Positions 5,916 to 61,363 of a stretch of 64,000 nt of DNA are shown one piece after another. The DNA is from Acholoe squamosa (taxonomy: Eukaryota; Annelida; Polychaeta; Phyllodocida; Polynoidae), in contig OX439043.1 of the NCBI GenBank assembly GCA_949317995.1, forward strand, positions 57,057,339-57,121,338, read 5' to 3'. Below the pieces are notes generated by a model. It had not been told where the DNA came from, made no database searches, and saw only the letters and a list, made by a program, of their open reading frames with translations. How positions within the stretch are numbered: the first letter of the stretch is position 1; each line of letters opens with the position of its first letter. Made by a program: the position numbers and the translations under genes.

Positions 5916-5917
5916 AG

Positions 5918-12290: not shown

Positions 12291-12292
12291 TA

Positions 12293-13131: not shown

Positions 13132-13133
13132 TA

Positions 13134-16022: not shown

Positions 16023-16034
16023 CACCCAGCTGTA

Positions 16035-16932: not shown

Positions 16933-17019
16933 TAGTGTAGTGTGAATGCGTCCAGCACCTTGATATGGTTGTGACCCCCCACAACAACTCTCACATGCAC
17001 AAGGTTAGAATAGCATTAT

Positions 17020-17283: not shown

Positions 17284-18263
17284 GCTAATAGATCATGGAT
17301 ATTGGAGCCCTAGGGGAGTGTATCCAGCATATACTCCCCGTGGGCTCCAATATCCATGACCTAATAGGTTTATACCACGAATTCCTCCATTTTGTATTAA
17401 TTTCTTACCTGATATCAACAGAATATAGCCACGAGAAGACATTTTGTAAAAGCAAGCGATACGGCCCGGGTCCGCTCTGCGCGAAGCCATTGTTTTTGTT
17501 CCTTGCCGGGAGGGTTACGCAGTGTTCACACTCACTTTTCGTATGGAATCCAACCATGACAAGTCTTCAAATTAATACATACATATCCTTAGACATTCTA
17601 GATGATCCCTCCATACTTATTATGTCCAATATATTCAAAATAAAGGAGAATCCATTGATTTTTCCATCATAAGCGAGTCGCGGTCCGGCCATTCCCACCC
17701 GCCTCCTTGTCCGGCGAAAGTGTGTCAGTGGCCCAGATGTAGATATAGGTCAACTGCTCGTCAAACGAGGAAGACGCCAAAAATTTCGGACCGTTTTGGA
17801 AAATCAATGGATTCTTATTTATATCAAAGAAAATGGAGAAAATTAGCACGCATTCCTCGTCTATGGATAGAGAACTTCTTGGGAATTCGATATTATAACA
17901 TGAAAAGGTTGGATTCCATACGAAAAGTGAGTGTGAAAATGCGGTACCTCTCCGGTCAAGGTCTTACTTATTTTCGCATTGGATTTCATCACCGTTTCAG
18001 TGTGGCGCTATGGCTAAGGCCTTCGCCTACCACCACTGCGGCCGGGGTTCAATCCTCATACGAGTTGGGATGATTTTTCACATTGAAACAATGGCAAGAC
18101 TAAATTTCTATGTCCGCCAGCGTCTCCCAAAATATTCTAAGTCCAACTTGACCCCGAAAAAGTATCTACCAAAAATTTCAAAAACGCACATGAGTGGTAT
18201 ATGCAGAATATACCATGTATATATCGCATATAAAACCACCAGAAGTGCCAGAATCGTGGTATA
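17284..18263 (+). mobile_element. Element F, copy A: hairpin end plus tRNA-like boxes
   Basis: Homologous in inverted orientation to 23609-24545. The body (17370-18263) has short inverted ends TTATACCACGAATTC and GAATCGTGGTATAA. The left side carries a large hairpin (17290-17362). Near the right end GGCGCTATGGCTAAGGCC and GGGGTTCAATCC resemble tRNA A and B boxes. Shared internal marks include GACGAGGAATGCGTGC on the minus strand and CATTCCCACCCGCC. Open frames (117 and 125 codons) are not conserved between copies. Family not recognised. Confidence 0.65.
17290..17362. repeat. Hairpin at the end of element F
   Basis: ATGGATATTGGAGCCC pairs with GGGCTCCAATATCCAT, and inner arms (GGGGAGTGTAT with ATACTCCCC) extend it around a short loop. 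The equivalent hairpin in copy B (24427-24535) has a different sequence in the inner stem but keeps pairing. Confidence 0.8.
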
Positions 18264-23608: not shown

Positions 23609-24545
23609 TTATACCACAATTTTGGTACCTACAGTGCTGATATGAACATATCTGCCGTGCATTATATAGGTATATACCACCCATGTGCATTTATAGAGTT
23701 TTTGGTATATACTTTTTCGAGGTCAAGTTGGACTTGTAGGAGAATTGAACCCCGGCCGCAGTGGAGGTAGGCGGAAGCCTTAGCCATAGCGCCACACTGA
23801 ACGGTGATGAAATCCAATGCGAAAGTAAATAAAATCTAACCTGTGGTCCTAGTCCTATGTTTACACTCAGTTTTCGTCTTGATTCCAACCTTGTCATGTT
23901 ATAATATCAAAATCCCAAGAAGTATTCGATCCAAATATGAGGAATGTGTGCTAATTTTCTCCATTTTGTTCAATATAAATAAGAATCCAATGATTTTTCT
24001 ATCACAGTGCAGCCATTCCCACCCGCCTTGTCGTCTGACGAAATTGTGTCAGTGGCCCGGATGTGGATATAGGTCATCTTCTCGTCGTACGAGGAATACT
24101 CTGAAAATGTCAGACCGGCTTGAAAAATCCTTAGATTCTTCTATATTTTGAATATATTGGACAAAATAAGTATGGAGGGATCATCTAGACTATCTAAGGA
24201 TGTGTACCTTTTAATATCTCCACTTGTCATTGTTGGATTCGATATGGAAAGTGTGTGTAAACACAGCGGTACCACTCCCAGCAAGGAAAAATAACAATGG
24301 CTTCTCGCATAGTGAACCGGGGAGGATCGGTGGCACTTACAAAATGTCTTCTACAGATTTTATTCTTTGGATATCAGGTAAGAAATTAATACACAATGGA
24401 GAAATTAGTGGTATAAACTTAATAGGTCATTGATATCGGTGCCCACGGGCCCTACATTCTTAATATACCCTTGCTGCTGCGCGGCTCGGGTATATACAGA
24501 ATGTAGGACCCTAGGGCACTGATATCAATGATCTAGATATTAGGT
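23609..24545 (-). mobile_element. Element F, copy B: hairpin end plus tRNA-like boxes
   Basis: Inverted relative to copy A. The left end TTATACCACAATTTTGG and the right GTGGTATAAACTTAATAGG are the element ends. It keeps the tRNA-like segment on the minus strand (23755-23800; GGCGCTATGGCTAAGGCTTC, GGGGTTCAATTC). A hairpin at 24427-24535 pairs CATTGATATCGGTGCCC with GGGCACTGATATCAATG. Confidence 0.65.
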
Positions 24546-32118: not shown

Positions 32119-33245
32119 ACGGCATCAAAATATTCTAAAGTGGCATACCGCCCTTAACAACTAGTTGAAGAGAGATTCACAAGAATCTGTCCAACCCTGA
32201 GTAGCTAGTCCATGTTAAGTAGGCCTACTAGGGGAAATTCTATCCAAAAACATTTTTGGTAAAGGTTCAAAGCTATCTTAATGACGCCACATTGAGGCAG
32301 TGGGGAAAGAAATCTACATCGCCCTTATGAGGAATGTGCTTTCCCGTACTTAAACCATCGGACGTCTTGTTCTTCACCTGAAATAAATACAATTTTCTAC
32401 TTATGGTTAGGCCCTCACGGATATGTGTACTTTTTCAACTGAAGAGAGATTTCATAAGGTGGCCATATAGACATAAATCCTCCTGTTGTATGTAGATCTA
32501 TTATATTAGCATTCACTTTTATAACCACGACAATTAAGACACGTAAGGAATAAATGACTCTATAAATATTTACAGTGTATAGTATAAGGAATGGGGAAAG
32601 AAACACTGTGACATGACAGAGTGCTATGAGATATAAATGTGGTTAGGTCAGAGAATTGGATAGCATGAAATATGCATTTCTAAACATACGGTAGCATGAA
32701 AAAGGCATTTCTAAACATTGTACGACTGAAAACAGCCACTACGATTTGAATCCCTCAAAATTAGAGTGGTTGATCAGTTGTGTGCCATGACTGGTCTGTA
32801 CGCTCATCACTTAATATAGTATTTACATATGGTTTTGTAGGGCAGGAGGGTGTTACTCCTATAGTAAAAGGAAGAGCTGGCTAAAAATGCCCTCGTTTCC
32901 AGTCCTTTCTTTTCATGTAGCTAAAACTTGTCCCTTTTGTTGCTCACAAGTGGTCATTCAAGTATGGTGCTAAAAAAGGGGGATTTGAGTAGGTACCTAG
33001 TTGGAAGAAGTCAGTCAGTATAATAAACTATAGAGCGTGTGACATGAGTAGGTACCTGGTAGTGCTGCTCTCTCTGTTTTAAACAAGGCAGGTGACTTTC
33101 CAGACTGATGTGGTGAGTCCAAGTACTTTGGTGAAGCAGTGCACGACTTGTTTAGAAAGGAGGGCACATACTCACAGCTCCTTTTACAATAGGAGCAACA
33201 CCCTCCAGTCCTATCAGTGCACTAATTAGTAACCACTAGATGCAG
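32119..33245. other. No recognised feature
   Basis: A local duplication of GCATGAAA..GGCATTTCTAAACAT near 32663-32720 is the only structure noticed. TGAGTAGGTACCT also occurs twice (32985 and 33044). Confidence 0.4.
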
Positions 33246-33465: not shown

Positions 33466-33689
33466 TTTTTACTTCAATTCAACTGGTGATTGTGTTAAGC
33501 TCTATATAGGATTCACACCTGACAGATCAGAGTCTCCTCATTGAGGAAACATTTGAAATGCCTCACACCATATTCATTTAGAACCCCTGAGCCTCTGGGT
33601 TTCCAACAAAGAAACAAATTCAAATGTGGATATTGTATTTATCTAGAATACCACAGAATAGGTGTTCCTCTCTGACTACCCTCGAAACA

Positions 33690-33795
33690 AGACACAGGAA
33701 AATCCCGTGAATGACTGGTGAATCTGTGAGCATATATATTCTCGGGAAGATCCTGGGAATAGTACCTACAATCCCGTGAATTACCTTGATATTCC
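33690..33795. repeat. CCCGTGAAT repeat region
   Basis: AATCCCGTGAAT occurs twice (33702 and 33770), with TTCTCGGGAAGATCCTGGGA between. Related TTCACGGGA and GTGAATTCACGTG motifs are denser at 47150-47310. Confidence 0.45.
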
Positions 33796-33904
33796 CCAGT
33801 TTTTAACAGGGCCCTCTAGTGAGATTTATACACATAAGTCTGATTCTTCAGCATAAAGTGAAGATGCCAGAGTCCACCAGGGGCCTCTGTGTGAGCATGG
33901 AATC

Positions 33905-33996
33905 CTGGTTTGGTCCAAAGAACAGAGAGAGGGAGTGAGATGGAAAGAAATGAGAGGGCAAGAGAGGCACAGAGAGAGCAAGAGAGATAGATATAA

Positions 33997-34027
<31 letters not shown>

Positions 34028-34146
34028 AAGGAGAGAGAGAGAAAGGGAGAGGGAAACGGGAGAAAGAGAGGAAGGCAATAGAGGGAGGGAAGAGAGAGAA
34101 AGAGAGCAAAATAGAAAGAGAGCGAGGCAGAAAAAAAGAGGGAGAG
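33905..34146. repeat. Polypurine (GA-rich) tract, about 240 bp
   Basis: The plus strand is almost purely A and G, with a perfect GA run in the centre (33998-34017). Three overlapping minus-strand frames of about 100-130 codons are Ser/Leu-rich products of the tract and are not genes. Long purine runs can adopt triplex structure. Confidence 0.93.
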
Positions 34147-34246
34147 CCTTGCCCCCCAATAAAAAAGGAAAATTGATTGACTTAAGCTACTGACAAAATT
34201 GATACATAAAGTTTTTTGAATCATAATATTATGTGTCCCATTCTAA

Positions 34247-34374
34247 TATGTGTGTGGTGCACATATGCATGGGCACTGACACATTCATCTGTGAAGATGT
34301 GTAATGTAGTTCTCACCATGAATATGACCTCAGTTGTCGAAATGGCGTTAAACATTTATTACTCACTCACTCTC
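34247..34374 (+). mobile_element. SINE-1, 5'-truncated copy
   Basis: Starts at GTGTGTGGTGCACATATGCA and runs to GTTAAACATTTATT and the ACTCACTCACTC tail. The first 55-60 bp of the head is missing. Confidence 0.88.
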
Positions 34375-34464
34375 CCGTCTAATAATTATGATTGATATCT
34401 CACTAAATGTGCATATTGATATCTCACTAAATGTGCATGTTTGCTAGACATGTCTTGAACAGAG

Positions 34465-34686
34465 TTAAACCCTTTAAGGGCTAACCCTAATGCATTAATG
34501 CATTTTGGTTGTCATGATGCATTAATGCAGGCAGGGCTTCATTCAAGCATCATGCTTACGCTTTGGGAAGATCAGCATGATGCCCCAATAAAGTGCTGGC
34601 AAGCAGACTCCCCAAGTCTTCATCGGTAAAACATGCCAGCCAATGGGCACGTTACACTACTGCATCAGCAGACCTTAAAGAGTTAG
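34465..34686. mobile_element. piggyBac-like MITE (family M4), short copy
   Basis: Left end TTAAACCCTTTAAGGGC with CTAATGCATTAATGCA, right end GACCTTAAAGAGTTAG. The terminal CCCTT and TTAA resemble piggyBac-type elements. A better-defined relative is at 42613-43303. Confidence 0.45.
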
Positions 34687-34689
34687 GTA

Positions 34690-36185
34690 GCATTTAGAGG
34701 CCTGGCAAATAGGCACTCAATGATTATAGGGCATGCTAAGTTGTTTACGGGCACTAAGTAAAGAGTCAGCTAAATTTAGACTGTCAAGGTTGTAGGGTGC
34801 AGGCAAACCACCTGTGGTACACACTTACAGAACAGGTCATTTTAGTCAGATGGGGAGGGGGATTTCTGGGGCATAAATGGGTGAATGTAAAAGCATCATT
34901 TAACACTGTCTGTGCTGTCTACTTAACCGGGTAAAAGCACCCAAAATCTCACTGTGCCTTATTCACTGTACTAAATAAATACTCAGACATTTAGTTTGGT
35001 CTTTACCCCTGGTCCATATCCAAGACAGGTACTTAGGAAATTTTAGTGCTGAAGAGTTATTTTAACACCTCCCCACCCCCACTAACCACTGGTACTTATA
35101 TGAGACCAGCAATCATTGCTGAGTGTCAAGAATTAATCTTCTCAAAAATGAGCATCAAGATACTCACATGGAAAACTTTTCTGACTCTCTTTTGTGTCAT
35201 TTTTTTGGGGAAAATATTTGGGGAAATCTCAAATTTACACCAGACTTCCTTCATATGGGATGCATGCCATAGTTCCATCCATTAAAAATACACTGTAACA
35301 GGTTTATGCCTAGGTCCATCACACCTCATGTATAGACTCACTATGAACTATGTGATATTTAATGGACTATTAACACATAAATACCATGTTATGACATGTG
35401 TCCGTCGAGAACATATTTGAGTATGATTTGAAAAATGAATGTGACATATCAGATGGAAATAGAACCACCCCTGTGCCCCCTCACCCCCTGCTGATACCTA
35501 CTGAGCACTCCCAAACACCAACAGGACCAACCAGTTTGGGCTACACTGCCCCACCTCAGCTGTCATTTCCACCTGGCTCACCTACACACAAGACCTGTCT
35601 CCAAAAACTGAGGGTAACAGTGGGTAAGCATAAATTTGCCATTTTTCACCATTTTCTATTCATTATGACATGCAAAGGTCACCATTTTCTTGCTGCTCTA
35701 TTCATAAGGGCACTTACAATCCTAAATAGGAAATGGCACTAGTATCTCAATATTACCAATGGCATTGTACCTTGTTGTGTGCAATATTCATGAATGCTAA
35801 TTCAAGCACTTTACCAGCATTTGCAATGATCCATAAAAGAAATCCTAAGTACTTGACTGGATATTTATTTGCAATAATATGTGATATTGTACATCTGAAG
35901 GCATGATTGCAAACCCATACATGTACTTGTGTGGCCACTGGCTGTGTTCAGAAATAGCCCTCCTTATTGCAGCTGCATACTACTACTATACAACTAAGTG
36001 TGAGAGGCAGTCAGACCCTTTCCCAATCCAGGTCATAGTGGGCCCACCTTGTGTACTGATTACCTTACCTCTTATACAGTGTACCCATTCCCAGCCAGCC
36101 TAATTTGGGTAACTCACACAAGCACCTAGCAGAAGGTGACTTTACTTGTATGCAGGGTTGTTGTAGATTGCAACACTCATGGTCA
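34690..36185. other. No recognised feature
   Basis: Single-copy-looking sequence. The 114-codon Pro/Thr-rich frame at 35398-35742 starts at a non-ATG codon and has no known domain. Confidence 0.4.
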
Positions 36186-36370
36186 GATTCCCCTTCTGTC
36201 CCAGTATATTTACATGTCTGTATATGTGTCCACACTCACATCCATCTATGTACATACATTCCCTTTTATCCACATACACTCACATGCCTCATGTCCACAT
36301 GCACCCCCTCACACATCCACATCCTCTCTATGTCCACATCCCCTCTAAGTGCACACATACCTCCCTCTAT
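36186..36370. repeat. 22-bp minisatellite, left flank
   Basis: Degenerate TCCACA/CCCTCTATGT units merging into CATACCTCCCTCTAT at the right, where the SINE is inserted. It belongs to the same array as 36747-36971 and 40165-41690. Confidence 0.7.
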
Positions 36371-36746
36371 CAGGCTTCCCTAGCCCACTTAAAAGGGTCT
36401 ATTTCTCCTCTTTCCTATCCCCTTGGGATGTGTATGGTTGATTGATTGATTGATTTGTGTTTTACAGCACTTTAGCGGCACTAAGTGGCTATCCCATGCT
36501 TCACAGGTTGATAATTTAAGAGAGGAATGTGTCAGTGCCCGCGCATATGTGCACCACACATCCTGAGGGGATAGGAAAGAGGAGATATAGACCCTTTTAA
36601 GTGGGCTAGGGAAGCCCGGGGATGTGTGTGGTGCACATATGCGCGGGCACTGACACATTCCCCTGTGAAATTGTGTAATGTAGTTCTCGCCATGAATATG
36701 ACCTTAGCTGTCGAAATGGCGTTAAACATCTATTACTCACTCACTC
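36371..36746 (+). mobile_element. SINE-1, full-length copy interrupted by a second SINE
   Basis: Flanked by ACCTCCCTCTAT (36359-36370 and 36747-36758), though that word is also part of the host minisatellite. After removal of the inner element and one copy of its duplication, 182 bp remain, exactly the length of the copy at 6819-7000. The 3' tail is ACTCACTC. Confidence 0.85.
36438..36618 (-). mobile_element. SINE-5: SINE-1 head with a different, (AATC)n-type tail
   Basis: 181 bp, inserted in reverse inside SINE-1, flanked by GGGATGTGTATGG (36425-36437) and GGGATGTGTGTGG (36619-36631), a 13-bp duplication with one difference. Read on the minus strand, the first 100 bp or so equal the SINE-1 head (GGGCTTCCCTAGCCCACTTA to GACACATTCCTCT). 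It then switches to an unrelated tail with GCATGGGATAGCCACTTAG, GTGCTGTAAAACACAAATC and (AATC)n. This indicates a SINE family that acquired a different LINE-derived tail. Confidence 0.85.
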
Positions 36747-36971
36747 ACCTCCCTCTATATACACACCCACCTCCCTCTGTGTCCACACCCACCTCCCTCT
36801 ATGTCCACACCCCCCTCTCTCTGTGTCCACACTTAACTCCCTATATGTCCACACCCATCTACCTCTGTGTCCACACACACCTCCCTCTGTGTCCACACCC
36901 ACCTCTCTCTATGTCAACACCCAGTTCCTTCTGTGGTCACACCCACTTCCCTCTGCGTTTACACCCACCTA
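36747..36971. repeat. 22-bp minisatellite between SINE and foldback
   Basis: About ten units of CACACCCACCTCCCTCTATG plus TC, continuous in phase and sequence with 40165-41690. It ends at TA next to the foldback element. Confidence 0.92.
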
Positions 36972-37199
36972 CAGTGGCCCACAAGGGTCAAATTGAAGTT
37001 GAAGTAAAGAATTGACTTTCACAAAAAAAAGTTAGAGTCCAAAACCAATAATAATGTTCAAAGTCAATTTCATTTCATTGCTGTCAAACTGTCAAGGTGT
37101 CAACTTATGAAAACCAACTTGTGACAGGTATCTTTTAGCATTGCATGGTGCACTCTATGTCTTTCTATATGAACAAAGCTTATACCAGCAACTACTGGG

Positions 37200-37650
37200 T
37201 AGCTATCGGTTCCCTCACACAATAACTGATGGTTCCACACCAAGTAGTTGGTGGTTTCAGCATCCTGTAACTGGTAGTTCCCACCCACTGTAACTGCGGT
37301 TCCACACCTATCCGCTACTGGCACTGGATCCCATACCAAGTAGCTGCTGGTTCCCACACCCAGCACTTGGTAGTCCCATACACATTAGTTGCTGTTTCCT
37401 GTACCCAGTACATGCTGGTTCCCACATACAGTAGCTGCTGGTTCCCATATAAAATGGTTCCTAACCCAAGTAGTTGCTGGATCCCACACCCTTGCTGGTT
37501 CTTGTACCCAATACCTGCTGGCTTTCACATAGAGTAGCTGGTAGTGGTTCCCACATCCATTAGGTGCTGGTTCCTGCACCCACTTCCTGCTGGTTCCCAA
37601 ATAGTGCCTGCTGGTTCCTACATCAGGTAATTGTGAGTTCTTAAAAGAGT
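37200..37650. repeat. Left arm minisatellite (GGTTCCCACA... type, 24-27 bp)
   Basis: About 17 imperfect units around GTAGCTGCTGGTTCCCACA. Open frames on the minus strand at 37100-37669 are by-products. The inverted counterpart is at 39370-39950. Confidence 0.88.
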
Positions 37651-37659
37651 AGCTGTCAA

Positions 37660-38742
37660 AATAAGTCAATTGGGTCAGGATAGGTCAAATTAGGTCAAAT
37701 ATGTTGAAAATAGGTCATATTGGTCAAAAGTATGTCTATTCGGGTAGCATAGGTCAAATTATGTCAAATATGGTGAAAATAGGCCAAATTAGTCAAAAGC
37801 AGGTCAATTAGGGTAGGATAGGACAAATTAGAGTAAATATGGTGAAAATAGGTCAAATTGGTCAAAAGTAGGTCAATAAGGTCAGGATAGGTGAAATTAA
37901 GTCAAATAAGGTGAAATTAGGTCTAATTGATAAAAAGTAGGTCGATAAGGGTAGGATAGGTCAAATTAGGTCAAATATGCTGGAAAAATATGTCAAATTG
38001 GTAAAAAACAGGTCAAATAGGGTAGGATAGGACAAATTAAAGTAAATATGGCGAAATTAGGTCAAATTGGTCAAAAGTAGATAAATAATGTCAGGATAGT
38101 TGAAATTAAGTCAAATAGGGTGAAATTGGGTCTAATTGATAAAAAGTAGGTCAATAAGGGTAGGATAGGTCAAATATGCTAAAAAATATGTCAAATTGGT
38201 GAAAAGCAGGTCAAATAGGGTAGGATAGGACAAATTTGAGTAAATATGGTGAAATTAGGTCAAATTGGTCAAAAAAAGATAAATAATGTCAGGATAGTTC
38301 AAATTAAGTCAAATAGGGTGAAAATAGGTCTAATTGGTAAAAAGTAGGTCAATAAGGGTACGATAGGTCAAATTAGGTCAAATATGGTGAAAACTAGTCA
38401 AATTGGTCAGAAATAGGTCGATAAGGTAAAGTAAATCAAATTAGGTCAAACATGGTGAAAATAGGTCGAATTGGTCAAAAGTAGGTCAATTAGGTCAGGA
38501 TGGGTCACTTAAGGTGATATATAGTGAAAACAGGTCATATTGATCAAAAGTAGGTCAATTAGGTCCAATAAGGTCAGGATAGATCAAATATGGTTGAAAT
38601 AGATCAAATTGGTCAAAAGTAGGTCAACTTTGTCAAAATGTAGGGTATGATAGGTGAAGTAAGGTCAAATATGCTGGAAATAGGTAAAAGTAGGTCATTT
38701 AGGTCAAATTATGTCAAAATTGGTCAAAATAAGGTCGACTAT
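37660..38742. repeat. Left arm AGGTCA-rich array, about 69-bp higher-order unit
   Basis: The higher-order unit of about 69 bp consists of roughly 10-bp pieces: AGGTCAAATT, AGGTCAAATA, TGGTGAAAAT, AGGTCAAATT, GGTCAAAAGT, AGGTCAATAA, GGGTAGGAT. Exact AGGTCAAATTAGGTCA occurs three times (near 37683, 37965 and 38368). Confidence 0.9.
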
Positions 38743-39365
38743 GACTATTTTTGACCAATCTAACCTACTTTGACTATATTTGACCTAATATGACCCATTC
38801 TAACCTACTTTGACCTAATCATGCTACTTTTGACTGATTTGACCTATTTTAAGATATTTTACCTAATTTAAACTATCCTTACCTAATTGACCTTCTTTTG
38901 AACAATTTTCCTATTTTCACCATTATTTGACCTAATTTGACCTATCTTAGCCTGATTTGACCTACTGACCTACCTTTGACCAATTTGACCTACTTTTACC
39001 ATATTTGACCTGATTTAACCTCCTTGACACACCTTTAACCAAATTGACTTATTTTCGCCATATTTGACCTACCTTAGCCTACTTTGACCAACTGGACCTA
39101 ATTTTGACCAATGTGATCTATTCTTACCACCATTGACCTAATTTGATAGAATCTGACCTGATTGACCCATTTTCAACCAATTTGATATAATTTATCCTAG
39201 TCTGACCTTATTTCATTCAATTTTACCTACTTGGAACCAATTTGACCTATTTTGACAATTTTTAACTATGTTGACTGCTTATGACCTTGTTTCACGCAAC
39301 TTTCCCAATTTGCCCATTTTTGACTTTTATGACCTTTTTCATCCAGAATTTATCCAGATCACTCT
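38743..39365. repeat. Right arm TGACCT-rich array (inverse of the left array)
   Basis: TTTGACCTAATTTGACC-type units on the plus strand are the reverse of the left array. The array is shorter (about 620 against 1080 bp) and more diverged, so arms are not strictly equal. Confidence 0.88.
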
Positions 39366-39369
39366 TTTG

Positions 39370-39950
39370 CTACTAGGTATGGGAACTGGTAGCTACTCTA
39401 TATCGGAACCAGCAGCTACTGGATATGGGAACAAGTAGCTACTGTATGGGAACCAACAGCTACTGTTTTCAGAACTAGCAGCTACCTAATGTGGGAACCA
39501 GCAGGCACTCTATTTGGGAACCAGCAGGTAGTGAGTGCAGGAACCAGCACCTAATGGATGTGGGAACCACTACCAGTTACTCTATGTGAAAGCCAGCAGG
39601 TATTGGGTACAAGAACCAGCAAGGGTGTGGGATCCAGCAACTACTTGGGTTAGGAACCAGTTTATATGGGAACCAGCAGCTACCTGATGTGGGAAGCAGT
39701 AGCTACTGTATGTGGGAACCAGCATGTACTGGGTACAGGAAACAGCAACTAATGTGTATGGGACTACCAAGTGCTGGGTGTGGGAACCAGCAGCTACTTG
39801 GTATGGGATCCAGTATCAGTAGCTGATTGGTGTGGAAACACCAGTTACAGTGGGTGGGAACCACCAGTTATGGGGTGCTGGAACCAGCAGCTACTTGGTA
39901 TGGAACCATCAGTTATTGTGTGAGGGAACCAATAGCTACCCATTAGTTGC
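39370..39950. repeat. Right arm minisatellite (GGGAACCAGCAGCTAC type)
   Basis: Reverse complement of 37200-37650 with a few additional units. For example GTACTGGGTACAGGAAACAG at 39725-39744 is the exact reverse complement of a segment near 37400. Confidence 0.9.
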
Positions 39951-40164
39951 TGGTATAGACATATAGAAAGACATAGAGTGTACCATGCAAAGTCAAAAGA
40001 TACCTTTTACAAGTGGGTTTGCATTCATGAGTTGACACCTTGACAGCTTGACAGCAATGAAATGAAATTGACTTTGAACATTGATTTTGCTTTTGGACTT
40101 TAACTTTTTTTGTGAAAGTCAACTCTTTGCTTCAACTTCAATTTGACCTTTGTGGGCCACTGTA

Positions 40165-41690
40165 CCCACCTCCTTCTGTGTCCACACCCACCTCCCTCTA
40201 TGTCCACACCAATTTTCCTCTGTGTCTACACCCACCTCCCTCTGTATCCACACCCATCTCCCTCTGTGTCCACACCTGCCCTCCCTCTATCTTCCTACCC
40301 ATCCCCACTATGTCCACACCCAAAGCTCTCTGTGTCCACACCCACCTCCCTCTGTGTCCACTCTCATGTCCCTCTATGTTCACACCCACCTCCCTCTATG
40401 TTCACACCCACCTCCCTCTATGTCCACACCCACCTCCTTCTATGTCCACACCCACTTACCTCTTTGTCCACACCCACTTACCTTTTTGTCCACACCCACT
40501 CACCTCTATGTCCACACCCACCTCCCTCCACTTCCACACCCACCTCCCTCTGTGTCCACACCACCCCCTCTGTGCCACACCACCTCCATCTGTGTCCACT
40601 CTCACCTCCCTCTATGCCCGAACTCACATCCCTCTGTGTTCACACATCCCTTTGTGTCCACTCTCATCTCCCTCTATGTCCACATCCATTTCCCTTTCTA
40701 TCCACACCCACTGCCCTCTTTGTCCACTCTCCCCTCCCTCTATATCCACATCCAATTCCCTCTATGTCAACACCCACCTCACACTTTGTTCACATCCGCC
40801 TCCCTCTATGTCCACACTCCCTTTGTGTCCACTCTCATCTCCCTCTATGTTCACATACACCTCCCTCTCTGTCCACACCCACTGCCCTCTTTTTCCACTC
40901 TCCCCTCCCTCTATTTCCACATCCATTTCCCTCTGTGTCCACACCCACCTCCCTCTATGTCCACACCCACTTACCTCTTTGTCCACACCCACTTACCTTT
41001 TAGTCCACACCCACTCACCTCTATGTCCACACCCACCTCCCTCCATTTTTACACCCACCTCCCTCTGTGTCCACACCACCTCCCTCTGTGTCCACACCAC
41101 CTCACTCTTTCTCCACTCTCACCTCCCTCTATGCCCAACCTCACATCCCTCTGTGTTCACACTCACATCCCTTTGTGTCCACTCTCATCTCCCTCTATGT
41201 CTACATCCATTTGCCTCTTTGTCCACACCCACCTCCCTCTGTGTCCACATCCACCTTCCTCTATGTCAGCACCCACCTCACTCTGTGTTCACACCCACCT
41301 CCCCTATGTCCACGGCCACCTCCCTCATTATCCACACCCACCTCCCTCTATGTCAACACTCAATTCCCTCTTTGTTCACACCCACCTCCCTCTGTGTTTA
41401 CACCCACCTCCCTCTGGGTCCACACCCACCTCCCTCTATGTCCACACCCGCCCTCCCTTTGGGTCTACCCAAATCCCTCTATGTCCACATCCAAATCCCT
41501 CTCTATCCACACCCACCTCCCTCCGTGTCCACACCCACCTCCCTCCATCTTCCTACACATCCCCATTATGTCCACAACCACCTCCCTCAGTGTCCACAAC
41601 CACCTCCCCCTGTGTCCACTCTCACCTCCCTCTATGTCCACACCCAGCTCCCTCTATGTCCACACCTACCTCCTTCTGTTTGGTTTGGCA
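40165..41690. repeat. 22-bp minisatellite, main block (1.5 kb)
   Basis: About 70 units of CACACCCACCTCCCTCTATG plus TC. No unit contains a plus-strand stop, and 22 is not a multiple of three, so all three frames stay open and show the same 22-residue period (MSTPTSLYVHTHLPLCPHPP). The 528- and 533-codon frames here are therefore artefacts. Longer duplications inside the array exist: a stretch from 40447 is repeated at about 40967, and another from 40654 at about 40826. Confidence 0.95.
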
Positions 41691-42200
41691 TAACCTAGTG
41701 AGTAATGGATATACCATTTGTCTTTATAGGTGCATGAAGTTGGACCAATGAAGACCTGGAGGCAACATCCTACTAAGTGGTTCAAGAGGACAACACGTTC
41801 TACTCCATATGATTTTTTCAAAATTTTCAAAGGTTCTCTAAAATTGTTATTTGACATGTATGCACATATTTGCCAATGATTTTTTTCTGATATCCCAAGC
41901 AGGAAATGAACAGCAAAGAATAATTGCTTTTCAGTGACCATGATCACTGAATGGTTGATAGTATGGAGAAACAATGAATTTCTACAACATGCTTGGCAAA
42001 GTCCTAGATTTTTTTTTGGTTTTTGTGGCCCATAGCCTTTAACCATTACAGCTATGTAATAATGCTATCCGTAGTATCAAGCACATCTAACAAGCTGTGA
42101 ACAGGTCAGCTTGACTCGTACACCTGGCCTCCAGAACTGGTCATGTGACCATAGCACTGAGACACACACAGAGGACCTGCCCTCCCCCCACTTGGCCCTT
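41691..42200. other. No recognised feature
   Basis: Unique-looking sequence after the minisatellite. No coding signal. Confidence 0.4.
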
Positions 42201-42203
42201 CAT

Positions 42204-42547
42204 AGGATGTGTTACAGTTACTGATTGTTAATATTTATGGGTCTTTTTAGGCAAACAAACCAATGCATTAAGTTGACCTTTGGGTAAGATGACTAGGATG
42301 CACTTACCTGAAAACTATACACACATTGCAATTAGATCTTAATCTCTTGTTGTACATGATAAATCATGTAATTTACATACCAATCATAGGAGCATTCCAT
42401 ATAGTCATCTAACAATATCCTATCTAATATATTCTAATATATTGAGGAGCTTCTACTCATGGTGTAGTCACCTAACCATGTGTTGCCAATGTCTGCCTGC
42501 AGCTAACCACCCTGTGACATCACAAAGGCCTAACTGTAACACACCCT
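42204..42547. mobile_element. MITE M5, 344 bp
   Basis: Inverted ends AGGATGTGTTACAGTTA and a reversed AGGGTGTGTTACAGTTA (16 of 17 identical). No ORF. Flanking duplication not resolved. It lies 65 bp from the M4 element. Confidence 0.7.
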
Positions 42548-42612
42548 AATGGTCACGACTTTGACAGCTCTCATACTCCCTCCTCCACAGTAGGGCCGCA
42601 CACACCTCTTAA

Positions 42613-43303
42613 CCCTTCAAGGGCCTCTAATGCATTAATGCATCATGTCCATTGGACATCATGATGCACCAATGTATGAAGTGCATATTAGGAGTACAAA
42701 GTGACATGGGATTGGTTAATTGGAGTCTTAGAATGGAAAACAAGCAAGTCATTCCCATATTAGGAGCCCAGTCACATAGTATTGTTATATTTGGAGCAGT
42801 TACTGCTACAAATACACATGTTGCAGACTGGTAATACCTACACAGCCGTTGTTCTGTTTACTGGTGTCTATTTTTACACATCCCAGGTCACTTCAGGTAC
42901 ATACAGAGTGATTGGTGGTTTTGGGTTTTAGGTATTTAACACAAAGTGATCCTGGATAGTCATTGGTAGGTGTCACACACTGCTATTTTACAGGCTGGGT
43001 TTATATGTATACATGTTTATTTTAGTAATTGTTAATGTGGGTTAGAGTTTTAGCACAAGGTGATCCTGGACAGTCAGCAGTACCGGGGTAGGCATCGCAC
43101 ACTGCTATGTACAGGCTGGTTCTATATTTTAGTGGTTGGTAAGGTGGGATTAGAGTCTGCATGCTCTCCAACACTTAATTGGAGCATTATGCCGACCCTT
43201 TTGCAGTGTGTGTATCAACTCATATGGTCGTCATGATGCATGAATGTAGCATCATGATGACCGATGGGCATGATGCATTAATGCATTAGTGGTCCTTCAA
43301 GGG
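42613..43303. mobile_element. piggyBac-like MITE M4, 691 bp
   Basis: CCCTTCAAGGGCCTCTAATG at the left, preceded by TTAA, and a reversed CCCTTGAAGGACCACTAATG at the right. TGCATTAATGCATCATG follows at both ends. Internally two similar segments (about 42936-43015 and 43052-43115) share GTGATCCTGGA and CACACTGCTAT. TTAA is present only on the left. CCCTT termini with TTAA suggest piggyBac, by inference. Confidence 0.7.
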
Positions 43304-43720
43304 ATGTAATGGTTGGTGAGTTGGGATGTAGTGGTTCAGGTTGGTGAGTTGATGCATTTGATGCATGGCCATCAAAATTTATATGATGCCAAACTATAGT
43401 CCATCCCTGATTACTTGTCACTTGTACATATAATAACTGCAACCTATAGTCCATACTTAACACATGTAAACAGATTCATTTCCCTTGGACTATGGGCAGA
43501 AGGAGGGGTCAGCTAGTGCGTGAGGAATGGATAGGCTTGTAGCTTACTGCCGGTGGGGGACCCATTCATATTTTTGAGATACAGAACCTTTAATATTATA
43601 TAGGATTATGCAGTAATTTGTCACATTATTCCCCATATTCATATCCAAAAGTTGACAGATTTTTTTCATAACTTCCTGAGCACTTAGATTATAAACATAT
43701 CTTTGTAATGAATGAAGTAT
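43304..43720. other. No recognised feature
   Basis: Nothing supported was seen. Confidence 0.4.
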
Positions 43721-43721
43721 C

Positions 43722-43790
43722 AACATATAGTCCAAGTGGTAACACATTTGACTCTATATCAAGAGATCTTGGGTTCTATTTTATGCCAGG
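43722..43790 (+). repeat. tRNA-like SINE head
   Basis: AGTCCAAGTGGTAACACATT (A-box region) followed by GATCTTGGGTTCTATTTTAT (degraded B box) at tRNA-like spacing. Acceptor pairing is absent, so this is a decayed SINE promoter. Confidence 0.45.
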
Positions 43791-45460
43791 GAATGTAAGA
43801 ACATCTGTGAGCCAGCAAGCAGAAATGAGGGTTTCTGCAGGATTTAGTACCTGTTTTAGCCACCAGGGGGCACTACTATGGGCTAGAATAGGAAAAATAT
43901 GCCTAAAACTGCTATAGGCTACTTTTTTATGGACAATCCAATGATTTTTTTATAAAACATTCTATTTTGGGGGGAAAGGGTCCATATTTGGCATTAAAAA
44001 GAATGTTTTTGGGCCAAAATAGGCATTTTTGTTGATTTCTGTTGCCATGGAAACATTATTTTCATTCTAAATAAGAAAATCGATGATCCCATTTGAAGGA
44101 ACATTTCATAAGGTTCACTATGGTGTAAACAGAATGAAAATACCATTTCTACATCGAAAGTTATGGGCAAAAGAATGAAAATTTATGCTTATTTAGCTAA
44201 TTAGCATAAATTATGCTAATTACAGATGTATCTCATGACCAATGGGACTTATGGCTTATTGACATTCACAAAATGGTCATACCTACCCATATTTAGCAAG
44301 CCATTCCTCCAAAATCTTCTCATGCAATATATCACTGTAAAGCTAGTGATCTGAATTTTAAAGTTGACTTCTAGCATGGAGCACCCTTTCTCCTTGCCTC
44401 TACACATCTATACAAATATTTTCGGAACATTTCGATTTTCTTTTTTTTTAATTTGGCTACCATAAAACGTTTTTTAATGTTTGTCAACATTTTTTCATCA
44501 TCCAATTGATGTTTCTGGGACAAACCCCCTCTCTATCAAACGGTTTTTACTAACCCTGTTATTAAGCTATACTATCATAGAATGTGTTTGTCTGAAATAT
44601 AGACAGATTGCAACCCCTCTTTTCCCTCGCCTGCAAAACTTGAAATATGCAGATACAACCTTGTTGCACTGAGGCAACGACATATGGATGAAAATCAATA
44701 TGAAAAGCAAATGCTGTCATTCACTGTTAGTATCAATGACACACAAAAACAATCTATTATCCAATAATTTGTAATACACTAATGAGGTTTATTATATAGA
44801 AGTCATTCTACCCAATTTACAAATTGATATTCATGTAGTAGATTAATTTGTTATCATTCCATAATAAAACTGATTTAAACTAAAACTTTCCCAAAAATAT
44901 TATTTAGATGACTTGTTTTAAGATAAGTGGAATTTTTATCAGTGGTCTCATGCATTGGTCATTTGAATTTGTGTAGAAAAGTAATTTTTGTTTAATTTAA
45001 ATTTATTTTGAATACTTTGCAAATTTTGAGGGGCCCAGATAAACTTCCTTTATAATTGAGGCTGGTGCCCCTTTTCCTATGCCCCTGATTCATGTTCAAC
45101 TTGAAATAACTACTACCCACACATTCACTTTAACTCACGGGCATGTAATTTTGTTTTCTTTATGCAGGTAGTCAATTGCAACACAGGAGCTTGATGAAAT
45201 CTGCTAGATAGCACATATTAAGAGAGGTACTCCAGAGAAGAGGGCTGGCTGAAAAACAGCACAGTGGTGCCACCCATATGATATTTTAATTGTTGTCATA
45301 GATTTTCTGTCAGAAATAAGATACATTAAGTATGGCTATTTAGGGAAACCAAACTTTGAGAGGCTTGCATTGTTGATTCCTGGATTCATCATGCCTTTTT
45401 TGGTAGATTTAAATAAAAAGATTCAGACATGCAGTCTTGAATTCTAAACAAAAGAAAATG
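43791..45460. other. No recognised feature
   Basis: Contains a small TTAGCTAATTAGCATAA inverted cluster near 44193-44220 and, at about 45030-45090, GAGGGGCCCAGATAAAC to CCTATGCCCCTG, which may be a fragment of an hAT-like MITE. Confidence 0.35.
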
Positions 45461-45463
45461 TAG

Positions 45464-45868
45464 TTACAATGCCCTGTCTATAAGGTGCACCCCACATTTA
45501 AGGCACACCCAGACCTTTCTAATATGATAAAAGGATATGTAAATGTTGTATATTTTATTCTAATCAATGGATCTTCAAAATTCAAGAACTAATAGCCATC
45601 CCAGTGCTTCCTTCACCCACCTTTACCACTGAATGTGGATGGGGGAATATTGCAGAGACTTTGGGGGAAAATTTACTCCCAGAGAGAAAATGTACTCCCA
45701 GTTTTGCTGCATCTAGAAGATGCACCAAAGGGCAATTCTTGCATATAAGACATGCCATATACATGGTGTATTACAGTATAATATTGCAAAGGCATTTTAT
45801 GCTATGTTCCTGCCCCCTGGTGGCCAAGACTAGAACTTCAAATCCTCTATGTAAGAATGTATGGTAGT
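45464..45868. mobile_element. Probable MITE M2 relative
   Basis: CTGTCTATAAGGTGCACCCC at the left, GCATATAAGACATGCC near the right and a final GAATGTATGGTAG resemble M2 ends. The interior TTCTAATCAATGGATCTTCA matches 59229-59370. Confidence 0.5.
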
Positions 45869-45869
45869 A

Positions 45870-46440
45870 ATAGCAGTGTAGATGTAAGCGTAAATGGTTT
45901 TCCATGTTAAAAATCAACTATCAAATTGAAATCACACCTTTCAGTGTTATATTGCATAAGAAAATACTCCTGATAGTTTGAGAGAAATAGCTTGCTAGAT
46001 ATGAACCCATGAGTATTTATGACCATATCCCCAATCTCAATATGTTCTAGCTCTATTTGGCCTTGAAATACATCCATTTATTTCATTTTAACTTCTGGTG
46101 TAAGAATGGTATGTTCTTTCTGCCTTCACCATAGTAAACCATGGAACTTTCCCACAAATGGGTTCCTTGATTTTCTTTTGCTCCTTTGTGCTCCCTTGTG
46201 GCAAAATTAGGAAATAAATCTAGCATGGGCTAGGCACCAATCCTGTTTACCTGTTCGAGACTATATGTGTGATGAAAAACCTGAATATTTTCATTGCGGT
46301 GGAGCTAACTCTATTCAATATGCTGATGCTGGCTTTTTTTAAGGTAGATGGCTCTAATGCCAATCATGTTCTCTGTGCAGGTTTCTGCACATGTGTACTT
46401 CTCTATGGCTAGTGAACGACTATACAAAATCATAGCAGGC
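45870..46440. other. No recognised feature
   Basis: AT-rich sequence without noticeable structure. Confidence 0.4.
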
Positions 46441-46530
46441 CCATGAAGCTGAGGTGAACTCTCAATCTTCTGTGTCTACACCAGGCACACTAACTAGTTA
46501 GGCCACAAAGCCAGCTGGCTGTGTGGGGGT
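46441..46530 (-). repeat. tRNA-like SINE head, minus strand
   Basis: Minus strand: TTTGTGGCCTAACTAGTTAG (A-box region), GTGTGCCTGG and GAGAGTTCACCTCAG (B-box-like). Cloverleaf incomplete, so I call a SINE head and not a tRNA gene. Confidence 0.45.
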
Positions 46531-47145
46531 TTATGAGCAGTATTTAGCCTGCATGATGTAATTCTATTATTTTCAGGAGATTTTCAATGTGGAAAAACAA
46601 TTCAAATGTGCATGGGACCACATAATGGTAATATATTTTCTGGGTACAGAAAGTTGATGAAAATATTCTGGGAAAGTAAGCCAAAAAATTAGCTACTCTT
46701 TAATGAGATTCCATGCAAATTATGGCAAAACACTGTATAACCCTATGGTAGATTCATAGATAAATATCTCATAAACTAGCATGGGACCCTATGCTAGTTT
46801 ATAAGACTGCTTTCTTTGTACTATTAGAAAGAGAAAGTAATTACAAACATCTGGCGAAAATTTAGCTACTTTTAGCCTATGGGCGCCATCCACCTTCCCC
46901 ATTTATTGCCCCCATTCTAGATGTATTTATTACCCAAATAAAGGCTCAAATCAAAATATAAGTCAATGTGTCTAGTTTTGTGTGAATCTCTATATTGCTC
47001 AGAATCTATCAATCGAAATGATGGCGTTTCAAGACTAGATCTACATCAAAGACAAATACAATGAGTAAAGTCTCATCGTAGGAATACAAACTATCGATTT
47101 CAAATCTTAAATTGAGGTTAGAAGTGGGGGTTATTTGCAAAAGTA
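46531..47145. other. No recognised feature
   Basis: Only a repeated ATGCTAGTTTAT/ATAAACTAGCAT inverted pair near 46770-46804 was noticed. Confidence 0.4.
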
Positions 47146-47149
47146 TTTT

Positions 47150-47310
47150 CAATATTCCCGTGATATCACATGAATTTACTGTCATTTCACGTGATTCCGT
47201 GATATCACGTGAATTTCTGCTCACAGAATCCCGTGAATTCACGTGTAAAATTCACGGGAACGACACCAGTTCAACACATGATTTTACTGGTGAATTCACG
47301 TGAATTTGTT
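47150..47310. repeat. TTCACGTGAA-type palindrome cluster
   Basis: Repeated GATATCACGTGAATTT, CCGTGAATTCACGTG and TTCACGGGA words in both orientations, seven or so within 160 bp. CACGTG is an E-box core. The high symmetry explains open frames on both strands. Confidence 0.7.
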
Positions 47311-47544
47311 TCAAGGGTACCTATTTCATTTCACAAGGCATCAACCTATTTGGTACATTTTGCCAAGTGTAATGTTAGATTGAATTTTGAAAGCCTCAAA
47401 TACATGTCGTTTCTGAAAAATCATCATAATTTTGACATCCATGGAGCTATTTATTGTACCCATCCACCAGAAAAATCCTGTTTAAAACCATGCTGCCATC
47501 TGGTGTGTAAAGGTAACACCATGTGTCTATCCCTTAGTCAAATT

Positions 47545-53473: not shown

Positions 53474-55244
53474 CCTCGTGCATAAAGTGTCACTATATGC
53501 ATGAGGAAAAGGTTGTCACAGGACTATTATAAATGTTCCCACCAAGTATAGGACTGATCCAAGATATGTCTTTACTGAAGGGAATTTTCAGTTTAAAAGC
53601 AATTTTCCCAGTTATTTCTGTTTTGATCATACAAGAGAAGCATTGCACATCATTTCCAAGCAGAATTGATGAGAAATGAGGCCAATATTTCATCTTTAGA
53701 GCTAAATAGATGATATGACTAGTCTACAGTAGGGGGTAACTTGGCCGAAACAGGGCTATATATGCTGCCTCATTTTCAACTTTTTGGAAGCATATTATGT
53801 GTTACAGAGAGGTTGTTTATACCATTTGCATCAAACACAGATTTTATAGTTTTGATAAAAACTTCTTTGAGATGCATTTGGTCAAATTTCTTAAGATTGT
53901 TTTCAGTGGGATAACCAAAAAGGTCCTTCAGGTGTTATTACAAGCCTATTCCTTCCCCTCGGGAACCTCCATCCCCCAACCATTGCATCTCCCATTAGGG
54001 TTGTAGCCCTTGCTACTGGGTCAACTTATGCACCTCCTCAACCGTCTGAATAACCGACTTAAGAGATGTTAACATTTCTGTCTAATCATTGTCATACAAC
54101 ATATTTGTACTCTTTTGACAAATCTCTCAGTGTCTGAGCAATCAATTGAGCGAGGATTTGATGTATTTGAAAGGGAAGAATGTGTACCATCTGGATTATT
54201 CTCAGGGTAGATTCTGGTGAAAAAACGGCAATTTCGGGCAACCTGGCAGCCTGTTTGGTGACTGATGTTTTTGAAAGCAAAGCTGCTACAGTTATCAAAA
54301 CAGTCTCAAATGAAGCAGAATTTTGTTTTGCAACTTCTGTGGACTTTCCATGTACACAAAAAGAATATTTTTCTCTTCTCTGTGAGAGTGATGAAAGGTA
54401 GCGAAAAATTGAAGATTTCAGAAAACTTTTACCATGGCTTCCATGGCAACCGGTCACATAATTTTCAAAATATTGAAGAAATGATCCTACATTCAGGTCA
54501 CCCAAGTATCTTAGCTTTAACCTGATATCTAGATCAATATTGCAGCTTGACTGGTTGGGAAATTATCAATGACCCTTCAAAAGAAGTCAGGGAAACTTTA
54601 AGTTTTCAGGCCCATACTTGGTGAGAAGATCTATAGAGGGGAGGTTAGTCACAGGACTACACGAGGAAAAGGTGGTCACAGGACTACTAGAGGGGAGGGT
54701 AGTCATAGGACTACTAGAGGAAAAGGTGGTCACAGGATAGCACGCAGAAAAGATGGTCACAGGACAGCATGAGGAAAGGGTGGTCACATGACCACACAAG
54801 GGGTGGTCTCCTGTTGTCCTGTAACCACCCCTCCCTCATCATGTCCTGTATCCACCCCTCCCTCATTATGTCCTGTAACCACCCCTCCCTCTTGTTGTCC
54901 TATAACCACCCCTCCCTCCTGTTGTCATGTAACCACCCCTCTCTCGTCATGTCCTGTAGCCACCCTTCCCTCCTAGTGTCATGTAACCACCCCTCCCTCC
55001 TGTTGTCCTGTAACCACCCCTCTCTCATCATGTCCTGTAACCACCCCTCCCTCGTCATGTCCCATAGCCACCCTTTCCTCCTAGTGTCATGTAACCACCC
55101 TTTCCTCCTGTTGTCCTGTAACCACCCTTCCCTCCTGCTGTCCTGTAGCCGCCCTTCCCTCCTGTTGTCCTGTAACCACCCCTCCCTCATGCTGTCTGGT
55201 GACCTCCTTTTCCTCGTGCATATAGTGGCACTCTATACACGAGG
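53474..55244. mobile_element. Foldback-like TIR element, 1.77 kb, with inverted minisatellite
   Basis: The left end CCTCGTGCATAAAGTG, CACTATATGCATGAGGAAAA pairs with the reversed right end CCTCGTGTATAGAGTG, CACTATATGCACGAGGAAAA. Each end is itself a near-palindrome. A 27-bp minisatellite in opposite orientations occupies 54640-55205. The interior (53540-54630) carries a 137-codon minus-strand frame at 54092-54505 without recognised motifs and with a non-ATG start. No target duplication was found. Confidence 0.7.
54640..55205. repeat. 27-bp minisatellite in two opposed blocks
   Basis: 54640-54790 has about five AGGAAAAGGTGGTCACAGGA units. 54812-55205 has about 14 TGTCCTGTAACCACCCCTCC units, which are the reverse complement. 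The turn is at about 54795. The unit is a multiple of three, giving the 172-codon plus and 96-codon minus frames as artefacts. Confidence 0.92.
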
Positions 55245-56976: not shown

Positions 56977-57167
56977 GTGAGTGAGTGAGTGAGTGAGTAA
57001 TAGATGTTTAACGCCATTTAGACAGCTAAGGTTATATTCATGGCGAGAACTACATTACACAAATTCAGAGGAATGTGTCGGTGCCCGCGCATATGTGCAC
57101 CACACACATCCTGAGGGGATAGGAAAGAGGAGAAATAGACCCTTTTAAGTGGGCTATAGGGAAGCCC
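56977..57167 (-). mobile_element. SINE-1, full-length copy with 13-bp target duplication
   Basis: Flanked by perfect GATAGATGTCAGA (56964-56976 and 57168-57180). It has the longest GTGA-type tail of the copies in the window. The tail lies at the low-coordinate side because the copy is on the minus strand. Confidence 0.93.
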
Positions 57168-57327: not shown

Positions 57328-57517
57328 AGTGAGTAGTGAGTAATAGATGTTTAACGCAATTTCAAAGGCTAAGGTCATATTCATGGCGAGAACGACATTA
57401 CACAATTTCACAGAGGAATGTGTCAGTGCCCGTACATATGTGCACCACACACATCTGAGGGGATAGGAAAGAGGAGATATAGACCCTTTTAAGTGGGCTA
57501 GGGATGCCCTATAAAGG
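57328..57517 (-). mobile_element. SINE-1, full-length copy
   Basis: All segments of the family are present (GTGAGTAATAGATGTTTAAC to CTTTTAAGTGGGCTAGGGAT). A short ATTTTG word flanks both sides (57322-57327 and 57518-57523) and may be the remains of a duplication. Confidence 0.88.
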
Positions 57518-59950: not shown

Positions 59951-60027
59951 AATAAGGGGGGGTTGCTTTGAGCGGGTCAATTTTTCTTTTACCCCTTGGA
60001 CAAGGAGGGGCAAATTTCGTGTCACTA

Positions 60028-60926
60028 CACTGCAAAAATGGTGTTTAGATTTTAAACATGTTTAGGTCTAAACAGGTTTAAAACCTAAACATATAGGTCA
60101 GTAAGGTGTCTCATTGACTACACATTTAGGAAATGAACACTTTTATTCTAACTACATAAACATTTATGCCTAACATGATTAGATGTTTAGAGTTGAAACA
60201 GTTGAATAATAGGTGTTTAGATTTAAACATCAATATGTTAGATACTTGGATATTGAATCCACACCAGGTAGCAGCACTACCTTTGAATGGACTATCTTCA
60301 CACAGTTATAATCAATTGTTGTGACAAATGTCCCCAAATCCCATGTTTATCATGTTTTCATTTCATAGAATGTCATGTGAATAGAAAGGGCAATAGAAAA
60401 TTGACTAGATTCACCTTACTCCACCATCATTAGCATAAAATAATCAATAAGCTCCATGACTGACACCTATTTGATGTTATTCTGGAATAGATACGGCAAT
60501 GTCCTTCCTGCCAAGCTGTTGTACTTTCTAAAGTCTCTCATTCTGATGCAGTGTGTAATACATGTACACATATATAGCTGTGGCTGACATCTTTGGAGAC
60601 TTTGACAAGTAAATACCAGTTGATGTCCCCCCAGTAAATGAGAAAACAAACAAAACATATCTCTTTTTTTTAATGCATACATGTCTGCAAACCTTAACTT
60701 TCCATCACATCATTTAAACATTTAAATACAAAAATTCATAAACACCTAAACACAAAAATTCATAGATATCTAAACACAAAGTTTTAACCTAAACACCTAC
60801 ATTTCTAAACACTTGAGCTAAGCACATTGTTTGGCTAAACATGTTTAGGAAATTAATGTGATTACAAAAACGTTGCAAGAATATGCTTAGAATTGTGTTT
60901 AGGATCTAAACACCATTTTTGCAGTG
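60028..60926 (+). mobile_element. TIR element E, copy 3 (899 bp, TA-flanked)
   Basis: Ends CACTGCAAAAATGGTGTTTA and its inverse, TA at 60026-60027 and 60927-60928. It is almost the same length as copy 2 (898 bp) and in the orientation of copy 1. Multiple TTTAGA/TCTAAA motifs lie in the outer 200 bp of each side. The 71-codon minus frame is not conserved in the other copies. Confidence 0.87.
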
Positions 60927-61363
60927 TATAGGTCAAAAGGGTGTGTTCGCACACAGTTTTTCAGAGGGGGCAAAAATAATGTTGACCCTCGCGAGGGGGA
61001 GCATATTTTTTCCGCGCCCCTGGGTTAAAACCCACTGCCCTCCCCCCCTGTTGTTAAAAAAATACCCACTCCCTTAGATGGTGGCTTTATGGACATAATA
61101 GTACTACCCTGCCAGCATGTACATGTAATAACTGTTTTGTAACTATTATATATTGCTTAATGGTTTCTTGATGGTATTGGTAAAGTCGAGTGTAAAAGGG
61201 GAGAAGTAAATGGGCTAAACGTTTGAAAAGCTGCTTTTATTTGACAAAAAGAAGGCAGCTACTTTGTTGTTGGCACTGTCACAGATAGCATTTCCCTTTA
61301 CCTCATCAGCTTATGTAATGATGTTTGCTGCATCACATGTGACAGGATCTAGGGCCCTTAGTG

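Follow-up and report, generated by a model that had tools for sequence, protein, structure and literature searches.

A non-autonomous foldback transposon with layered tandem-repeat arms, TA..TA termini, and 6-bp target duplications, nested in a larger transposon of Acholoe squamosa

Introduction

Foldback anatomy is mostly linked to the Mutator superfamily, with Galileo, of the P superfamily, as an exception (PMC4079207). In Tetris, from Drosophila virilis, the arms are described as consisting of flanking, tandem-repeat, and inner domains, and the repeat unit has a stretch in common with the flanking domain (PMC4079207). In Galileo, the arm repeats carry additional binding sites for the transposase, according to Marzo 2013 (cited in PMC4079207). 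Different ends are described for IS3EU elements, which have TA..TA termini and target site duplications (TSDs) that are usually 6 bp; GingerRoot is similar (PMC10045372). Satellite DNAs that resemble IS3EU elements have been tabulated in oysters, so such elements are on record from a mollusc (PMC8268682).

Here we describe a foldback element from the genome of the polynoid annelid Acholoe squamosa. The window, that is, the whole stretch of DNA analyzed, comprises 64,000 nucleotides of contig OX439043.1 (assembly GCA_949317995.1). A sequence-only reading had proposed a mirrored element at 36972..40162, and we followed up that proposal within the window and across the source genome.

Anatomy of the foldback element

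The element spans 3195 bp and is organized from the outside in as ~220-bp ends, a 23-bp minisatellite, and a ~10-bp GTCAA array, all mirrored about position ~38737. Its features are as follows.

36970..40164, no strand assigned: foldback element, 3195 bp, ends TACAGTGGCCCACAA..TTGTGGGCCACTGTA (inverted repeats and genome-wide ends)
36970..37198, + strand: left end domain; GTCAA occurs five times
37199..37654, + strand: left outer layer, 23-bp minisatellite (TRF)
37655..38736, + strand: left inner layer, GTCAA array with ~10-bp base period and 69-bp and 198-bp higher-order repeats (TRF)
38737..39368, - strand: right inner layer, mirrored GTCAA array with ~10-bp base period (TRF)
39369..39947, - strand: right outer layer, mirrored 23-bp minisatellite (TRF)
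39948..40164, - strand: right end domain; GTCAA occurs five times, at offsets nearly as in the left

The inverted ends claimed by the sequence-only reading are present at 36970 and 40164. A 20-base end pattern, allowing up to three mismatches, matches the window at these two positions and nowhere else, versus an expectation of 0 matches. The outer arms (36970-37656 and 40164-39456) form a 717-bp pairing at 88%, interrupted by 10 gaps, three of them longer (23, 18, and 8 bases) and the other seven of 1-4 bases. The earlier description of these arms as no more than one base out of step 400 bp from the ends is roughly right. In the window copy, 28 of 340 compared bases are mismatched in the outermost 350 bp of the left arm (~92% agreement), versus 6 of 290 over the next 290 bp (98%; Fisher p 0.0006). 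The outer arrays are mirrored as proposed, with a period of 23 bp rather than 24-27 bp.

Polarity in the inner arrays is absolute. GTCA and TGAC occur 53 and 0 times, respectively, to the left of the turn, and 0 and 31 times to the right. We place the turn at 38737, the start of the last left GTCA being at 38723. The mirroring of the inner arrays thus holds in direction, but not copy by copy: the arms measure 1082 and 632 bp, inverted alignments between them reach ~65-77% depending on length, and the 198-bp higher-order repeat was reported in the left array only. Overall, long inverted terminal repeats form most of the element, and tandem repeats (23 bp and ~10 bp) lie within both arms, as in the foldback structural class. 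The element was also said to lack coding capacity, and this agrees with our scans. The longest stop-to-stop frame inside it is 99 aa, and no Pfam match was found in the three foldback frames and seven carrier frames scanned.

Several other repeats were observed in the window. A 27-bp array faces an opposite-sense 27-bp array at 54648-55196 (turn near 54803 by eye), and 133 nt of this mirrored minisatellite are 77% complementary. A 42-bp minisatellite occurs in opposite orientations at 240-622 and 5913-6550, ~5.3-6.1 kb apart, with paired stretches that are 70-86% complementary. A ~0.9-kb repeat that includes a 24-bp tandem repeat is present in three copies (12291-13134, 16030-16937, and 60023-60931), two of which form an inverted pair 2.9 kb apart. 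There is also a ~0.8-kb inverted pair (17318-18202 and 23672-24468), ~5.5 kb apart, the main pieces of which are 79-91% complementary.

Copies in the source genome

We searched the source genome (1.48 Gb in 63 contigs) for related sequences. Exact matches to the 15-bp end number 605 (305 forward and 300 reverse), versus 1 forward and 0 reverse for the reversed control. Variant ends were also found, with the 15-mer followed by C or T at 8 places, and by A or G, then G, then a base other than G at 7 places. Among 100 end places listed, 60 combine into 30 plus/minus pairs and the other 40 have no partner. Pair length is 2.4-4.2 kb in 28 cases, 607 bp in another, and 24 kb in the last. The outer 201 bp yielded 1034 candidates, and all 40 scored copies match the full length of the query at 98-100% identity. 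A genome search with the outer arm had been proposed as a source of further copies and of an autonomous relative; copies proved abundant, and limited searches found no autonomous relative.

It had been suggested that the case would fail if the outer arms never paired elsewhere in the genome. They do pair: both arms are present in 18 of 20 fetched copies, from several contigs, with L018 and L024 lacking the right arm. The 607-bp copy (L072:32-638) retains both end domains and has no match to the central stretch. It includes only a short 23-bp array, with no inner arrays by eye, and has no target duplication.

Termini and target duplications

The element is flanked by a 6-bp duplication, CCCACC.

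36964..36969, + strand: left copy of the 6-bp target duplication CCCACC (sequence; same junction in other copies)
40165..40170, + strand: right copy of the 6-bp target duplication CCCACC (sequence; same junction in other copies)

The TA noted earlier on each side is indeed present, but as part of the terminal inverted repeat, with the 6-bp duplication beyond it. Both ends were read in 12 fetched loci, 11 of which have TA at each end, and L022 has TG at the left; further paired loci were picked by their exact TA-bearing ends, so they cannot bear on this question.

The most informative insertions are those outside the carrier transposon described below, a status judged from their flanks. A perfect 6-bp duplication, as expected of a foldback that moves as a unit, was read at five of eight: CTAGGC (L016), CTAATG (L017), CCTAAC (L020), GTTATC (C1:86.1), and CTTTCA (C3:29.1). 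The other three (C1:24.6, C3:2.48, and C2:86.3) lack it. These five sites, together with the mirrored structure at many places in the genome, support the proposal that the element is mobile as one unit. Overall, 10 of 20 fetched copies have an exact 6-bp duplication, seven of them at the shared carrier site; since these seven share one site, they count as one event. At that site, 17 fetched copies have the flank in question: seven match exactly, two (L012 and L028) differ, and the right end was not parsed by the script in eight. Further carrier-flanked pairs show an exact 6-bp duplication in one of five cases and none in the other four.

The minisatellite around the window element provides a separate test of its limits. 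Among the offsets tried, excision of the element plus one CCCACC best restores the 22-bp register (score 640, a join that we reached first under an 8-bp reading of the flank), versus 606 if TA is taken as the duplication. The flanking arrays are free of grouped breaks above 5 bases, and the left 229 bp are without a register break. The 8-bp reading, with ACCCACCT as the duplication, was dropped as insertions elsewhere show 6 bp. In 200000 trials with random junctions in the arrays, an 8-mer was shared in this way 1309 times, and the match of the outer two bases is coincidence. A window scan for elements with 8-bp duplications gave two candidates.

We also observed that TAC or TCC directly precedes the TACAGTGG left end in a subgroup of carrier copies (L013-L015, L018, L025-L028, and L079). 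TAC also precedes this end in the three insertions that lack a 6-bp duplication (C1:24.6, C3:2.48, and C2:86.3).

Superfamily assignment

The element is probably a foldback DNA transposon that is young and non-autonomous, ends in TA..TA, and generates 6-bp duplications. Its simplest placement would be with IS3EU/GingerRoot, either as a member or as an element moved by a transposase of that group. Both terminal features of IS3EU/GingerRoot are present: TA..TA in the 11 of 12 loci noted above, and 6-bp duplications at the five outside-carrier sites and as CCCACC, with three of the eight outside-carrier insertions lacking one. The superfamily is only inferred, because no transposase was linked to the foldback ends. 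Genome searches with an IS481 model (65 scored of 17056 candidates) and an IS3 model (79 scored of 14835) gave none over the cut-off. Three loci that we inspected appear by eye to be Gypsy-like retrotransposons, and by eye none of 20 integrase-type matches on C1 and C2 lies within 10 kb of listed foldback ends. A scan of viral and prokaryote contigs with the end pattern gave no matches, and a literature search with the end sequence returned no transposon-related titles.

The alternative with the most in its favor, which we nonetheless consider unlikely, is a Mutator-type foldback comparable to Drosophila FB, Tetris, and nematode Tm1, moved by a Mutator transposase. The anatomy is nearest to foldbacks of this type, to which most foldbacks seem to belong (PMC4079207), and MuDR and its bacterial relative IS256 generate duplications of 4-10 bp (PMC10045372). 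Among Mutator foldbacks themselves, duplications are 8-10 bp in Tetris and mostly 9 bp in Tm1, versus 6 bp here. TA..TA termini are moreover a stated mark of IS3EU, and this argues against Mutator.

Descent from Polinton/Maverick or Dada is quite improbable. Dada elements generate duplications of 6-7 bp. The termini of Polintons are AG..CT, versus TA..TA in this element. Polinton duplications are 6 bp long (PMC10045372), as here.

The presence of TA at both ends in nearly all fetched loci with both ends read could suggest a Tc1/mariner-type element with TA as its target duplication, as is implied by the TA that the sequence-only reading noted on each side, and we give this very little weight. 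The perfect 6-bp duplications beyond TA are site-specific, with five differing sequences, where TA alone would be expected; removal of TA alone leaves a break in the minisatellite register (606 versus 640), and the flanking arrays have no grouped break of the kind noted above. TA..TA belongs to the element itself as its termini, with the 6 bp lying beyond, so insertion in the style of Tc1/mariner is unsupported.

A Galileo-like placement in the P superfamily does not fit either. P elements duplicate 8 bp, and the 7- or 8-bp duplications of this group were not found, the length here being 6 bp.

The carrier transposon

The sequence-only reading described insertion of the element into a third minisatellite. 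It does sit in a minisatellite, but one that belongs to a mobile element itself, a 13.64-kb transposon that we refer to as the carrier.

33679..47317, no strand assigned: carrier, a dispersed 13.64-kb DNA transposon without recognized gene, ends CCCTCGAAACAA..TTGTTTCAAGGG (copy limits)
33677-33678 and 47318-47319: 2-bp duplication TA of the carrier
36742..36969, + strand: left part of the carrier 22-bp minisatellite (TRF)
40165..41677, + strand: right part of the carrier 22-bp minisatellite (TRF; register rejoined)
36620..36748, + strand: dispersed ~126-bp repeat, SINE-like by eye, adjoining the minisatellite (absent in carrier copies L006-L008)

Homology among the copies extends well beyond the foldback; in six other copies, homology to the carrier begins within 33669-33679 and ends within 47317-47319. 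All seven copies have 2-bp duplications (TT, CA, TC, TA, CG, TA, and, in the window, TA), which were read by eye from the flanks; the script tested only lengths of at least 3 bases and gave a single match, of 3 bases and unrelated. A search with 301 bp of the carrier (45000-45300) yielded 346 candidates, and all 40 scored copies are 98-100% identical. The ~126-bp SINE-like repeat has six copies in the window (6880-7002, 34248-34373, 36620-36748, 56987-57109, 57331-57455, and 61360-61485). Locus L053 has, in addition to its carrier end, a 92.6% match (L053:96-284) to window positions 33018-33206, just outside the carrier.

Nearly every carrier copy checked has the foldback, at a comparable position and in one orientation. 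On C1 and C2, an exact foldback end occurs within 16 kb inside 27 of 30 exact carrier right ends, versus a chance expectation of ~0.2 of 30 (from 88 foldback places in 243 Mb), and the orientation is the same in all 27. Conversely, 38 of the 88 exact foldback ends on C1 and C2 sit inside a recognized carrier; both fractions are lower bounds due to the use of exact matching. The minisatellite flank is present in 17 of 20 fetched foldback copies. Given its presence at 27 of 30 carrier ends, always in the same orientation, the foldback probably hitch-hiked after one insertion. The simplest history is a single foldback insertion into the carrier minisatellite followed by multiplication of the pair, and the carrier accounts for much of the dispersal of the foldback.

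If these counts of shared flanks (38 of 88 ends and 17 of 20 fetched copies) were all the evidence, the foldback might be read as a mere internal mirrored part of the carrier and not a transposon of its own. This is hardly credible given the copies inserted elsewhere with their own 6-bp duplications (L016, L017, L020, C1:86.1, and C3:29.1) and a carrier without foldback. The latter, L083, is additional to the 30 counted, has an uninterrupted minisatellite, and matches the window in a 3018-bp piece (93.7% identical) and a 1324-bp piece (93.4%).

Age of the palindrome

Comparison of 21 left and 19 right end domains revealed 23 alignment columns that are fixed between left and right (a gap was counted as a state, and L072 was left out of this count but included in the divergence figures). 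Divergence is 1.6% among left end domains and 2.6% among right end domains, versus 7.5% between left and right within a copy and 7.4% between copies. The fixed columns and this pattern of divergence indicate that the palindrome formed before the present copies spread. Judged from these alignments, the end domains are evidently not being re-homogenized.

Long palindromes can be artefactual, but the chance that this one reflects misassembly or a chimera is negligible considering the fixed columns, the presence of both arms in 18 of 20 copies elsewhere, and the end of the palindrome at the termini, with minisatellite in the same direction on both sides. By these signs, the foldback family is not an assembly artefact.

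Array length change and the GTCAA motif

The suggestion that the structure would drive copy-number change is consistent with array lengths in 18 measurable copies, including that of the window (three of 21 were unmeasurable). Lengths of the left inner array lie between 875 and 2017 bp, or up to 1462 bp apart from L014, while the right inner array is 604-633 bp in 16 of the 18, the exceptions being L014 and L025. The 2017-bp left array of L014, which is the same place as L007, has carrier sequence inserted (window 43806-44406, at L014:1027-1595). Left inner arrays already differ and right ones are mostly constant, which makes the growth of arrays within a palindrome measurable here. The foldback-in-carrier pair is thereby a natural experiment, in which many near-identical carriers apparently inherited a single insertion.

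Among the 5-mers of the inner arrays, GTCAA is the most frequent (n = 66). Each end domain has five in the same direction, with one and two in the opposite direction; the counts exceed those in shuffles (P 0.0005 and 0.0045), although they are not independent as the two end domains are homologous, and at least four were found in 0 of 2412 background segments. Words of 9-11 bases common to ends and inner arrays were not above shuffles (P 0.08 to 1.0), so the idea of a binding motif rests on a 5-mer chosen after looking. By analogy with Galileo, GTCAA may be bound by the transposase and may have been multiplied as the arrays grew.

Potentially accounting for these features, a transposase made elsewhere in the genome would pair both ends and excise the element, which would then be joined to target DNA with a 6-bp stagger. 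The foldback would have spread by two routes, through its own jumps and, following a single insertion into a carrier, by multiplication along with that carrier. The arrays inside the arms may have expanded through slippage or unequal exchange.

Comparison with known systems

The larger possibility raised by this element is that foldback anatomy arose independently in the IS3EU/GingerRoot (retroviral-integrase-like) lineage. In that case two layers of arrays would have been gained interior to the ends, the inner of them multiplying the GTCAA of the ends as further docking sites for the transposase, and much of the spread would be owed to a carrier whose insertion chemistry (2 bp) differs. We advance this tentatively, as somewhat less than an even prospect. 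A search at the level of titles and abstract openings found no foldback assigned to IS3EU/GingerRoot, although this is not proof of absence. If a foldback does have IS3EU-type ends, array-filled arms arise repeatedly around unrelated transposases, and such repeated origin would point to a selective reason, for example, multiplied binding sites.

The layered arms had been considered unusual, but they are not unique: those of Tetris also have multiple domains (PMC4079207). Like the window element, Tetris is described as non-coding, with three-domain arms, but it differs in its 8-10 bp duplications, 220-bp unit, suggested Mutator affiliation, and three structurally complete copies (PMC4079207). 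The window element has 6-bp duplications, TA..TA termini, 23-bp and ~10-bp layers, and hundreds of ends. Tm1, a Mutator/foldback element of root-knot nematodes, likewise has composite arms, with ~14-bp tandem repeats in variable number; it differs in its mostly 9-bp duplications, single repeat layer, and known transposase-encoding Phantom/Mutator-like member (PMC3169594). Galileo, foldback-like and of the P superfamily, also has long, internally repetitive arms, but its duplications are 7 bp (GTAGTAC), and its arms are >99% identical within two non-chimeric copies (PMC2775673), versus the mean within-copy end-domain difference of 7.5% here. As for the IS3EU families presented in PMC10045372, none is termed foldback or given array arms in the available part of that text, and no transposase was seen in the window element. 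IS3EU and GingerRoot combine TA..TA termini with 6-bp duplications (PMC10045372), as does this foldback.
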